Assembly: GCF_025629245.1 (NCBI RefSeq)
Contig: NZ_JANZXN010000008.1
Coordinates: 1-40,428, forward strand
Source of the DNA: Natronobiforma cellulositropha
GTDB taxonomy: Archaea; Halobacteriota; Halobacteria; Halobacteriales; Natrialbaceae
Length of the DNA: 40,428 bases
Reading direction: 5' to 3'
Below, piece after piece: positions 18,616 through 24,466 of the stretch (the stretch's first letter is position 1; each line of letters starts with the position of its first letter). The notes beneath the pieces were generated by a model that did no database searches, was not told where the DNA came from, and worked only from the letters and a program-made list of their open reading frames with translations. A program made the position numbers and the translations under genes.

Positions 18616-18861
18616 ATGGTAGCAAACAGACAGTCTCGACGGAGAGTACTGAAAGGCGCCGGCGTCACACTCGCTGCGGTGGCCATCGCAGGCTGTGGCG
18701 GTCCCGGTGAGGAAGAAGACACCGCCGAAGAGGACGCAGAGGGCGTCGAAGAGGACGTCGAAGAGGACGCGGAAACGGGTGAAGAGGACGTCGAAGACGC
18801 CGGCGAAGACGTCGAGGAGGACGCTGAAGAAGGCGAACAGGACGTCGAAGAGGACGTCTGA
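18616..18861 (+). CDS. small extremely acidic lipoprotein with Tat-type signal
   Basis: This gene encodes 81 residues. SRRRVLKGAGVTLAAVAIAGC (residues 7-27) combines a twin-arginine motif with a lipobox ending at Cys27, so the protein is probably folded before export and lipid-anchored outside the membrane. The mature part is almost entirely Glu, Asp, Gly, Val and Ala in irregular repeats of EEDVEEDAE type, without aromatic residues. It is likely disordered or helical and strongly hydrating. It has no catalytic features. The GAAGAGGACGTC-type codons make the gene internally repetitive at DNA level. Confidence 0.7.
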   Translation: MVANRQSRRRVLKGAGVTLAAVAIAGCGGPGEEEDTAEEDAEGVEEDVEEDAETGEEDVEDAGEDVEEDAEEGEQDVEEDV

Positions 18862-18874
18862 GACCGCAAGCGGT

Positions 18875-18940
18875 GAGCGGTGCGACGACGAGCGGTGAGC
18901 GGTGCGACGACGGGCGGTGAGCGGTGCGACGACGAGCGGT
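18875..18940 (+). repeat. three tandem 22-bp repeats
   Basis: Three adjacent 22-bp units start at 18875, 18897 and 18919, each beginning GAGCGGTGCGACGACG. The middle one differs by a single A to G change. They begin 14 nt after the lipoprotein stop and end 37 nt before the GTG of the cysteine-cluster gene. The period is not a multiple of three, and no hairpin is obvious. It may be a local slippage product. Confidence 0.85.
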
Positions 18941-18977
18941 GGAAAGACACTTGCCGCTCGCCCCCGACGCTCGAGTC

Positions 18978-21047: not shown

Positions 21048-22529
21048 ATGCATTCGCTTGCCGACGCGTCGGTCGTCGTGATCGGCGCCGGCGTCGGCGG
21101 TCTCTCGACGGCCTGTTACCTCGCCGACGCCGGGGCCGACGTACGCGTCCTCGAGAAGAACGAACAGCTCGGCGGGCGCGCCTCGAGACTCGAGACCGAC
21201 GGCTTCCGCTTCGACATGGGACCGTCGTGGTACCTGATGCCCGACGTCTTCGAGCGCTTCTTCGACGCGTTCGACCGTACCCCGGAGGAGTACTACGACC
21301 TCGAACAGCTCGACCCACACTACCGCATCTTCTTCAAAGACGGCGACCGGATCGACGTCACGCCGGACCTCGAGCGGACCAAACGCCGCTTCGAGGAGTA
21401 CGAGGCGGGCGCCGGTGAGAGCTTAGAGCGCTACCTCGAGAAGTCGGCGCTGAACTACGAGGTGGGGATGGAACACTTCGTCTACGAGGACCGGACCCGG
21501 CTTCGCGACTACCTCGACCTCGACGTGGCGCGCCAGGCGCGTGGTCTCTCGCTGCTGGGGTCGATGCAGGGCCACGTCGAGAAGTACTTCGACCACCCGA
21601 AACTCCAGCAGATCATGCAGTACACGCTGGTGTTTCTCGGCGGCTCACCGCAGAACACGCCCGCGCTGTACAACCTGATGAGCCACGTCGACTTCAACCT
21701 CGGTGTCTGGTACCCCGACGGCGGTCTCGGCGCGGTGGTCGACGGCATGGTCGAACTCGGCGAGGAACTCGGCGTGAGCTACGAGACCGGCCGGCCGGTG
21801 ACGAAGATCAAAGGCCGCGAGGACGCGTTCGTCCTCGAGACGCCCCAGGGCGCGGTTCGGACGGACCTCGTGGTGAGCAACGCCGACTACGCTCACACCG
21901 AGGAGGATCTCTTACCGCCCGACGGCCGGGGCTTCGACGCCGACTACTGGGAGTCACGGACCTACGCGCCGTCGGCATACCTGCTCTATCTCGGCGTCGA
22001 GGGCGACGTCGAGGAACTCGCCCACCACACGCTCGTCCTGCCGACCGAGTGGGAAGAGCACTTCGCCCAGATCTTCGACGAGCCGGCGTGGCCAGAAGAC
22101 CCCGCCTACTACTGCTGTGTCCCCTCGAAGACCGACGAGACGGTCGCTCCCGACGGCCACAGCAACCTCTTCGTCCTGGTCCCCATCGCCCCCGGACTCG
22201 AGGACGGACCCGAAACGCGGGCGCGTTACCGCGAGGTTGTCCTCGCGGACCTGGCCGAACACACGGGTGTCGACCTGCGCGAGCGGATCGTCTTCGAGGA
22301 GACGTTCTCCGTCTCCGACTTCGCGGACCGGTACAACAGCTACAGGGGATCCGCCCTCGGGATGGCCCACACGCTCCGCCAGACCTCGCTGTTTCGCCCA
22401 CCCCGGCGCTCGAAGGCCGTCAGCGGTCTCTACTTCGTCGGCTCCTACACGACTCCCGGCATCGGCGTCCCCATGTGTCTCATCAGCGGCGACCTGACCG
22501 CAGAGGCGGTGCTCGAGGATCACGGATGA
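21048..22529 (+). CDS. crtD: carotenoid 3,4-desaturase CrtD (phytoene desaturase family)
   Basis: This gene encodes 493 residues. An FAD-binding Rossmann motif VVVIGAGVGGLSTACYLADAGADVRVLEKNEQLGGRA is at residues 9-45, and the CrtI-type C-terminal signature ends near GLYFVGSYTTPGIGVPMCLISGDLTAEAV. The protein alone could be CrtI or CrtD. The order with lyeJ and cruF downstream matches the gene set shown to make bacterioruberin in Haloarcula japonica, so the carotenoid 3,4-desaturase is preferred. CrtD introduces the end double bonds of the C50 pigment. The last four codons (Glu-Asp-His-Gly) and the stop lie inside the first 29-bp repeat. Confidence 0.85.
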   Translation: MHSLADASVVVIGAGVGGLSTACYLADAGADVRVLEKNEQLGGRASRLETDGFRFDMGPSWYLMPDVFERFFDAFDRTPEEYYDLEQLDPHYRIFFKDGDRIDVTPDLERTKRRFEEYEAGAGESLERYLEKSALNYEVGMEHFVYEDRTRLRDYLDLDVARQARGLSLLGSMQGHVEKYFDHPKLQQIMQYTLVFLGGSPQNTPALYNLMSHVDFNLGVWYPDGGLGAVVDGMVELGEELGVSYETGRPVTKIKGREDAFVLETPQGAVRTDLVVSNADYAHTEEDLLPPDGRGFDADYWESRTYAPSAYLLYLGVEGDVEELAHHTLVLPTEWEEHFAQIFDEPAWPEDPAYYCCVPSKTDETVAPDGHSNLFVLVPIAPGLEDGPETRARYREVVLADLAEHTGVDLRERIVFEETFSVSDFADRYNSYRGSALGMAHTLRQTSLFRPPRRSKAVSGLYFVGSYTTPGIGVPMCLISGDLTAEAVLEDHG

Positions 22530-22703
22530 TCGAGACCACACGCGAGGATCACGGATGATCGAGACCACACGCGAGGATCACGGATGATCGAGACCACACG
22601 CGAGGATCACGGATGATCGAGACCACACGCGAGGATCACGGATGATCGAGACCACACGCGAGGATCACGGATGATCGAGACCACACGCGAGGATCACGGA
22701 TGA
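22515..22703 (+). repeat. six perfect 29-bp tandem repeats plus a 15-bp partial copy
   Basis: Units start at 22515, 22544, 22573, 22602, 22631 and 22660, all identical (begin GAGGATCACGGATGA, end GACCACACGC). A 15-bp partial copy lies at 22689-22703. The first unit includes the last four codons and stop of crtD. There are no spacers, so this is not a CRISPR array. The identity between copies points to recent expansion or ongoing homogenisation. Confidence 0.97.
22526..22703 (+). other. chain of six identical 10-residue mini-ORFs with ATGA overlaps
   Basis: ATG 22526 overlaps the crtD stop (ATGA) and opens MIETTREDHG followed by TGA at 22556-22558. The last base of the Gly codon and the TGA again form ATGA, starting the next copy. 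Mini-ORFs are 22526-22558, 22555-22587, 22584-22616, 22613-22645, 22642-22674 and 22671-22703. Each is 33 nt and overlaps the next by 4 nt, which explains the 29-bp period. The frame steps by one base each time, yet coupling is never lost. Whether the peptides are made is unknown. Confidence 0.6.
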
Positions 22704-22762
22704 CTGTGCACACGACACTCGAGCGGCGCGGTCCCGGACCGACGTGCGAGGGCGACGGATGA
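22700..22762 (+). other. 20-residue ORF linking the repeat chain to lyeJ
   Basis: This ORF starts at the ATGA that ends the sixth mini-ORF and runs 20 codons of non-repeat sequence (MTVHTTLERRG...CEGDG). Its Gly codon plus TGA again give ATGA, whose ATG (22759) is the lyeJ start. It completes an unbroken series of eight stop-start overlaps from crtD to lyeJ. The ending GDG-stop resembles the HG-stop of the repeats, so it may be a diverged older copy or the original spacer. Confidence 0.5.
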
Positions 22763-23610
22763 CCGGGACGACGACGCGCGGCCAGCTCCGATACCTGCTG
22801 ACGCTCTCGCGGCCGCGCTTCTGGCTCTACCTCGCCGGGCCGGTGCTCGTCGGCGTCGCCTACGCCGCGGCGTCGCCCGCCGACCTGTTCACGCCCGCGA
22901 GCGTCCTCCTGTTCGCCTACTTCCTGCTCCCGGCGAACGTCTTCCTCTACGGGATCAACGACATCTACGACCGCGAGATCGACGCCGAGAACCCGAAGAA
23001 AGCGGGGAGAGAAGCCAGATACGGCGGCCAGTCGGTCGTCCCCATCGCCGTCACGGCGTGTGCGCTCGCGCCGCTCGCGTTCGCCCCGCTCCTCCCCGCG
23101 AGCGCCTGGCCCTGGCTCGCGCTGTTTCTCCTCCTCGGGGCGGCCTACAGCGCGCCGCCCGCGCGTCTGAAGACGACGCCGCCCCTCGACTCGGTCTCGA
23201 ACGGACTCTACGTCACGCCGGGCATCGCCGCCTACGCGGCCGTCGCGGGGACCGCCCCGCCGGTGGCGGCGATCGTCGGCGGCTGGCTCTGGGCGATGGG
23301 GATGCACACCTTCTCGGCGATTCCCGACATCGGACCCGACCGTGCGGCGGGCATCCGGACGACCGCGACCGTCCTCGGGGAGACGCGCACCTACGCCTAC
23401 GTCGGCGCGTGCTGGCTCGCCGCCGCCGCTGCCTTCGCCACGCTCGACCCCCGCCTCGGAGCCGTCCTCCTCGTCTACCCGGCGCTCGTCCTCGCCGTCG
23501 CGACCTCGAGCGTCGGCGTCTCCCGGGCCTACTGGTGGTTCCCCGGCGTCAACACGGCCGTCGGTGCAGCGCTCACCGTCGGCGGTCTCTGGAGGGTCGT
23601 CCATGGGTGA
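22759..23610 (+). CDS. lyeJ: lycopene elongase LyeJ (UbiA-family prenyltransferase)
   Basis: This gene encodes 283 residues with eight or nine predicted membrane helices. The two Asp-rich motifs of UbiA enzymes are present: NDIYDREIDAEN near residue 73 and DIGPDRAAGIRTT near residue 193. In haloarchaea this enzyme adds C5 units to both ends of lycopene (with hydration), starting the route to C50 bacterioruberin. The start is ATG 22759, set by the ATGA overlap and the family N-terminus; a GTG at 22744 is an alternative. It overlaps cruF by 8 nt. Confidence 0.87.
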   Translation: MTGTTTRGQLRYLLTLSRPRFWLYLAGPVLVGVAYAAASPADLFTPASVLLFAYFLLPANVFLYGINDIYDREIDAENPKKAGREARYGGQSVVPIAVTACALAPLAFAPLLPASAWPWLALFLLLGAAYSAPPARLKTTPPLDSVSNGLYVTPGIAAYAAVAGTAPPVAAIVGGWLWAMGMHTFSAIPDIGPDRAAGIRTTATVLGETRTYAYVGACWLAAAAAFATLDPRLGAVLLVYPALVLAVATSSVGVSRAYWWFPGVNTAVGAALTVGGLWRVVHG

Positions 23611-24466
23611 GAGCGCCTCGCTCGAGGGCGTGACCCGTGCGCGCGTCCAGACGCGACTCGAGGACGTCGTGCGGGAGAACCGCTTCACCATCGCGGTGGT
23701 CTTCCCCGTCGTCGGCGCGGTGACGCTCGTCGGGAGCGCCGAGGGGCTGTTGCCGGGACCGCTCGAGTACAACCCGCTGTTGATCCTCTTCGGGACGCTG
23801 GTGATGCGCTCGCCGCTGATCGTCGGCCTGCTGCCGAAGATTGGCTGGCGTGCGCTCGGCCTGCTGGGGGTGCTCACCGCCTACACCTACGCCATCGAGG
23901 TCGTCGGCGTGCGCACCGACTGGCCCTACGGCGCGTTCGAGTACACCATCCAGCTCGGACCGATGCTCTTCGGCGAGGTGCCGCTGGCGCTGCCGCTGTT
24001 TTTCGTCCCGCTCGTGCTCAACGCCTACCTGCTGACGCTGTTGGTCCTCGGCGAGCGCCGGGAGAATCCGCTGGTTCGCCTCGCCGCGGCGGTCGTCGCC
24101 GTCGTCGCCATCGACCTCGTGCTCGACCCGGCCGCGGTCGCCGTCGGCTTCTGGGCGTTCGTCCCGCCGGGACCGTACTACGGTGTTCCCGTCTCGAACT
24201 ACCTCGGCTGGGTGCTCTCGGGCACCGTCGCCGTCGTCTGCGTCGACCTCGCGTTCGACCGCGAGGCGTTACTCGAGCGGGTTCGCTCCTGCGTCTTCGT
24301 CCTCGACGACCTGGTGAGTTTCGTCCTCTTGTGGGGGACGGTCAACCTCATCTACGGCAACTGGCTCGCCGCCCTCGTCGCCTGTGGATTCGGTCTCGCG
24401 CTGGTGAGGACGGGGCACTACGAACTCACGGCGACGGGGTCGTTCGTGGGGCGACGAGACCGGTGA
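23603..24466 (+). CDS. cruF: bisanhydrobacterioruberin hydratase CruF
   Basis: This gene encodes 287 residues from ATG 23603, which overlaps the lyeJ stop by 8 nt. Seven or so hydrophobic helices and the pattern YTYAIEVVGVRTDWPYGAFEYTIQLGPMLFGEVPLALPLFFVPLVLNAYL fit the CruF/DUF422 carotenoid-hydratase family. It adds water across the end double bonds, yielding bacterioruberin with its four hydroxyl groups. It is the last gene of the operon. The gap to the following small exported protein contains a separate promoter. Confidence 0.87.
   Translation: MGESASLEGVTRARVQTRLEDVVRENRFTIAVVFPVVGAVTLVGSAEGLLPGPLEYNPLLILFGTLVMRSPLIVGLLPKIGWRALGLLGVLTAYTYAIEVVGVRTDWPYGAFEYTIQLGPMLFGEVPLALPLFFVPLVLNAYLLTLLVLGERRENPLVRLAAAVVAVVAIDLVLDPAAVAVGFWAFVPPGPYYGVPVSNYLGWVLSGTVAVVCVDLAFDREALLERVRSCVFVLDDLVSFVLLWGTVNLIYGNWLAALVACGFGLALVRTGHYELTATGSFVGRRDR

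Follow-up and report, generated by a model that had tools for sequence, protein, structure and literature searches.

The crtD and lyeJ genes of Natronobiforma cellulositropha are separated by a spacer of 229 nt that consists of six 29-bp units and one 59-bp step. The question raised by this locus is whether lyeJ can be translationally coupled to crtD across such a spacer, and what part the repeated units would have in it.

Flanking genes and structure of the crtD–lyeJ junction

The window, which is the whole stretch of 40,428 nucleotides that was analysed, carries a carotenoid gene cluster with crtD, lyeJ and a putative cruF, all on the + strand. The product of crtD (21048..22529), of the bifunctional phytoene desaturase/3,4-desaturase type, scored 766 bits against the NCBIfam model CrtID (NF058655), which is above the cutoff of 640. 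The final codons of the gene are GAG GAT CAC GGA TGA (EDHG and stop). The lyeJ gene (22759..23610), encoding a UbiA-family lycopene elongase, passed both the prenyltransferase equivalog and the Pfam UbiA models, and a GTG at 22744 is its sole in-frame alternative start downstream of the crtD stop and ahead of the conserved region. The putative cruF (23603..24466), taken from the ORF list and named after gene order, overlaps the 3' end of lyeJ by 8 nt (ATGGGTGA). Upstream of the carotenoid genes, two adjoining blocks of low-complexity tandem repeats, with periods of 33/12 and 22, are present at 18726-18941.

The top-scoring TRF array of the whole window is the 29-bp array at 22514..22703 on the + strand (period 29, score 380, with 6.6 copies at 100% match). 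Its opening 16 bp are the 3' end of crtD. Six perfect copies of the 29-mer, as counted in a draft assembly of 60 contigs from a genus represented by one genome, start at 22526, 22555, 22584, 22613, 22642 and 22671, spanning 22526-22699. With its head-to-tail, near-identical copies the array is a candidate variable-number tandem repeat. When up to three mismatches were allowed, the 3.76-Mb assembly gave no match to the 29-mer beyond the crtD–lyeJ locus.

The unit reads ATG ATC GAG ACC ACA CGC GAG GAT CAC GG, and the stop TGA of its mini-ORF is shared with the ATGA of the following unit, giving the peptide MIETTREDHG. Six such relay ORFs are present on the + strand. The first (22526..22558) has its start on the crtD stop in an ATGA overlap, and the following five, found both by direct reading and by the chain search, are located at 22555..22587, 22584..22616, 22613..22645, 22642..22674 and 22671..22703. 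The seventh relay ORF, also on the + strand (22700..22762), has 20 residues (MTVHTTLERRGPGPTCEGDG and stop) and its stop lies on the lyeJ start, again in an ATGA overlap; its 3' end is similar to the 3' end of crtD (P ~0.02 vs shuffles). The chain search from crtD to lyeJ included these seven relays with a -4 overlap at all joins, so that ATGA is found at all eight stop-start steps, while crtD and lyeJ have no mutual overlap. Also the motif GAGG, with seven bases between it and the ATG, precedes all eight starts, those of the seven relays and that of lyeJ, and a short inverted repeat, GATCA-CGGA-TGATC, is present in every unit at the stop-start site. The first-pass annotation had described six perfect 29-bp repeats with MIETTREDHG mini-ORFs and ATGA overlaps, leading from the crtD stop through a 20-codon ORF to the lyeJ ATG, and the sequence, TRF and the chain search all confirmed this description.

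A relay at -4 requires a start-to-start spacing of 2 mod 3, and both 29 and 59 satisfy this. In simulated arrays with 0-12 copies the path from crtD to lyeJ was intact in all, and the earlier statement that the coupling path survives any change of copy number holds by these simulations as well as by the chain search. Since each duplication brings its own start and stop, crtD and lyeJ would stay coupled at any copy number. A specific requirement for 29 bp was considered and rejected, as duplicating most lengths across the overlap preserves the path. Both the anatomy and the frame arithmetic of the ladder are direct observations.

Proposed mechanism

The ladder is, rather probably, a series of relay ORFs by which lyeJ stays translationally coupled to crtD, with repeated termination and reinitiation spanning a 229-nt spacer that would be too long without them. 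A ribosome terminating crtD at the TGA would reinitiate on the overlapping ATG, make a 10-residue throw-away peptide and stop at the next overlapping ATGA, and eight stop-start transfers in total would lead from crtD to the initiation of lyeJ. The relay peptides themselves would be functionless, and just the frame and the stop-start ends would count. The array probably originated when a segment with an ATGA junction inside it was duplicated in tandem: the 3' part of the unit copies the crtD end, and the 5' part is similar to the lyeJ start. We infer that ribosomes use the ladder path, and crtD and lyeJ are presumably located on one transcript.

Reinitiation in Haloferax volcanii is strict where genes overlap (PMC6728339), and coupling is substantially lower at a distance of 13-14 nt and abolished or near zero at about 22-23 nt (PMC10666635). 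Because reinitiation in Haloferax fails beyond ~20 nt, relays would account for coupling across long spacers; a plain gap of 229 nt would uncouple crtD and lyeJ, which a chain of -4 overlaps need not do. For coupling in E. coli, the final 15 nt of the upstream gene are enough, and in the ladder every 29-bp unit contains a copy of the 16 bp with which crtD ends, through its stop.

A separate promoter of lyeJ within the spacer seems unlikely from the base composition. There is no A/T run longer than 2 nt in 22497-22758, and a TATA box is therefore absent there. Neither were TATA-like 5-mers found in spacers of at least 60 nt, whether bridged or unbridged.

Junctions in related genomes

The crtD–lyeJ junctions were gathered by LyeJ similarity, from 80 loci in named records and from 123 family genomes with a match. 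After removal of duplicates, 119 distinct junctions from the family Natrialbaceae and 33 from outside the family were compared, using predicted start codons. Abutment or overlap of the two genes is the usual arrangement outside the family (23 of the 33 junctions within -8 to +8 nt), and inside it 32 of the 119 junctions abut and 87 are non-abutting. Altogether 62 of these 87 are bridged by at least one relay via -4/-1 overlaps only. When strict joins were applied to all 119 family junctions, 57 had one relay, six had two, one had seven, 23 were direct and 32 had none; the sole junction with seven relays is that of Natronobiforma cellulositropha. The relays range from 2 to 50 codons and were found in 18 of the 29 genera of the family. 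Across the family, only 36-39% of the starts of relays and of lyeJ have an SD core. Bridging is non-essential in some species, because 25 of the 87 non-abutting junctions are not bridged under the strict definition.

In four loci of one genus (L044, L049, L174 and L196), an 8-nt overlap route with a GTG at -8 replaces the relay and enters a long N-terminal extension of lyeJ. Tandem units of other lengths were also observed: ~25-bp units forming no chain in the junction of L067 (~2200-2470), 9-bp units within a 46-codon relay in the junction of L079 (~2290-2430), and 15-bp units inside the lyeJ N-terminus of L083.

Constraint on the path

The background consisted of 400 kb of one family genome, ~260 kb of Natronobiforma cellulositropha and the window (~0.7 Mb in total), with genes predicted by a simple codon-usage finder and the identical chain test applied. 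Bridging was detected in five of the 170 co-directional background gaps of 9-130 nt (about 3%), and in nine of the 256 gaps of up to 400 nt when crtD–lyeJ was excluded. The ends of the spacers also differ from the background: the crtD stop is RTGA in 71 of the 87 non-abutting junctions, compared with 21-30% of the background genes before a gap, and the lyeJ start is RTGA in 80 of the 87, compared with 37-42%. Spacer length mod 3 is distributed as 64/17/6 among the 87 non-abutting junctions, class 1 being the one-relay class. A deletion of one nucleotide anywhere in a one-relay spacer leaves the chain intact in just 9% of cases. In the spacers of the one-relay class that are at least 30 nt long, stops are present at 3 of the 989 codons of the relay frame, while the two remaining frames have 20 and 10.

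As the species of the family share history, independent pairs with unequal spacer length were drawn with a tree constructed from CrtD and LyeJ. The spacer difference was a multiple of three in 18 of the 30 pairs (P=0.0025 vs 1/3). The raw junction counts overstate independence because the species are related; the conservative measure is the test with independent pairs. Another count of independent pairs (23/31) was discarded, as chain-chosen starts inflate the figure. Dinucleotide-shuffled spacers were rejected as a null, bridging being nearly as frequent in them (52.8 expected, 62 observed); the shuffles make a poor null because they preserve spacer length, and length mod 3 holds the signal.

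Some of the exceptions to the multiple-of-three difference have retained a path otherwise. In L100 one base is missing in comparison to its close relative L036, and the 26-codon relay is split into 4 + 22 codons, the split falling at an internal ATGA. In L118 one base is missing in comparison to L028 and its relatives, and here too an internal stop-start divides the relay in two. The constraint found in the relatives concerns the frame only. The junctions of the relatives lend strong, if indirect, support to the coupling interpretation of the first-pass annotation.

Ladders at other gene pairs and origin of the unit

Ladders recur at other gene pairs of haloarchaea. When 293 genomes from the order were scanned for sets of four evenly spaced RTGA, diverse types of arrays came up, and these were assessed by their gene context. 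With period 29, three of the 12 located arrays form complete chains between co-directional genes (Natronobiforma cellulositropha, L251 and L255), and with period 32 two of the 23 located arrays do so (L351 and L356). None of the 21 arrays with period 28 bridges, a control result that is partly produced by construction because 28 is unable to form -4 ladders. Arrays with period 30 were set aside, as they mostly resemble repeats within genes. The four further ladders join unrelated gene pairs with three to six relays each. Two of them have period 29 and are located at 1504-1587: L251 (G257) bridges co-directional genes, and L255 (G032), on the array strand, bridges the genes of a RibD-C-type reductase and an HD protein. 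The two with period 32 lie near 1504 on the array strand, L351 (G226) between the genes of a CbiQ-type permease and an ABC ATPase, and L356 (G327) between a co-directional gene pair.

The 3' end of the unit resembles the 3' end of the upstream gene in all five ladders (12-20/20 identical, P <=0.04), and in three of the five also the 5' end is similar to the start of the downstream gene. In the unit of Natronobiforma cellulositropha, MIETTR matches MTGTTTR of lyeJ and EDHG matches the crtD end. Because the observed signature of resemblance to the upstream 3' end is present in 5/5 units, the probable origin of ladders is that DNA at a gene overlap was duplicated in tandem.

Two more ladders on the array strand lead into a gene start and are unjoined to the upstream gene. 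These are the 5 x 32 bp MTARLYWRQSV ladder of L267 (array 1468-1600) and the 6 x 23 bp MTDRGPRP ladder of L275 (array 1454-1573), both possible chains of upstream ORFs.

Alternative explanations

The mini-ORFs could act through their products, as a regulatory or otherwise functional micropeptide, for example a leader peptide that causes ribosomes to stall or responds to an amino acid; in bacteria, short ORFs 5' of genes are often regulatory. The composition of the relays leaves next to no probability for such a function. No coding signature was found in the relay peptides across the family by GC1-3 or codon-position substitutions: GC1-3 is 0.67/0.68/0.65 in the relays and 0.71/0.43/0.81 at the crtD end, and the substitutions in the relays between close pairs are evenly distributed over codon positions 1/2/3 (43/42/35). 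Nor did the family show the conserved peptide of a regulatory leader, as both the length and the sequence of the relays vary. The peptides thus look unconstrained and the frame, the open length and both RTGA ends look maintained, and this combination of conserved frame, openness and ends with variable sequence is what is expected if the ORFs merely carry ribosomes. The regular 29-bp spacing, together with the inverted repeat at each stop-start site, might also indicate repeated protein-binding sites or an RNA structure controlling lyeJ. However, the predicted folding of the ladder was not better than that of shuffles (z = 0.56), and what the relatives have in common is the frame, not the sequence; control by such an element is very unlikely.

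Another explanation is a neutral minisatellite, in which chance slippage at a direct repeat has expanded the array, the ladder is a passive by-product of duplicating an overlap, and lyeJ initiates independently or does not need the ladder. Tandem repeats are indeed common and often located away from junctions, no gene pair is bridged by the 21 period-28 arrays or by most of those with 29 or 32 bp, the crtD–lyeJ spacers of L067 and L079 include unrelated tandem repeats, and duplications across an overlap tend to preserve the path at whatever length. Against these stand the family-wide relay frame, the enrichment of RTGA ends and the compensated frameshifts, all pointing to constraint on the path at this junction, and we regard a neutral array as unlikely. 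Selection could also act on the number of steps: if some ribosomes were lost at each step, copy number would set the LyeJ:CrtD ratio and the C40/C50 balance, as a fast and reversible form of dosage tuning or phase variation. The perfect identity of the six copies implies that they expanded or were exchanged recently, the path is kept at any copy number, and in the parallel case of MIRU the copy number differs among BCG strains (PMC9392950). The relatives, however, retain zero, one or two relays, and seven are therefore unneeded, and a literature search found no measured per-step loss in archaea. Tuning by copy number appears quite improbable.

With the relay chain as the preferred reading, an operon could gain a long spacer and still keep its genes translationally coupled, with the gap cut into throw-away ORFs of which the frame alone is retained. 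Such stretches appear as empty intergenic DNA in gene-finder output. If the relays work, gap length would be a poor predictor of coupling in archaea, and the crtD–lyeJ junction would provide dozens of natural variants, with zero, one, two and seven relays, for measuring the loss of reinitiation per step. A wider generalization, in which ladders and single relays are general and recurrent elastic operon linkers in haloarchaea, made by duplication and selected for frame, with the number of steps setting stoichiometry (here LyeJ:CrtD and the pigment mix), is doubtful and is offered tentatively.

Comparison with known systems

Searches of an open-access library found no account of relay ORFs lying between genes in archaea, and nothing closer to them than the MIRU. 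The first-pass annotation knew of no repeat array built from reinitiation steps, but the mycobacterial MIRUs are such a precedent (PMC12548453, PMC9392950). In MIRUs an ORF is coupled at -4 nt (PMC12548453). The MIRUs between senX3 and regX3 are 77-bp tandem repeats, the copy number of which is variable between BCG strains (PMC9392950). In both systems tandem repeats are present in an operon junction, each with a short ORF coupled to its neighbour at -4 nt, and the unit length of 77 bp is, like 29, 2 mod 3. MIRUs are dispersed and apparently mobile, whereas the crtD–lyeJ unit is found at one locus only (with up to three mismatches), resembles the ends of the neighbouring genes, is archaeal and is shorter. 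The ladder would work like tandem MIRUs, yet it is not classed as a MIRU because of its single locus and its resemblance to the ends of its neighbours.

The termination-reinitiation (TeRe) of gene pairs in Haloferax volcanii shares with the ladder the ATGA overlaps, the co-directional genes and the haloarchaeal host (PMC6728339, PMC10666635). It joins two genes directly, whereas the ladder inserts between them one to seven stepping-stone ORFs that are not genes. Also the leaders of bicistronic designs and uORFs have a short dispensable ORF with a stop overlapping the next start, but they are loaded from the 5' leader, while in the ladder ribosomes would come to the first ORF from a complete upstream gene, and several ORFs are chained.
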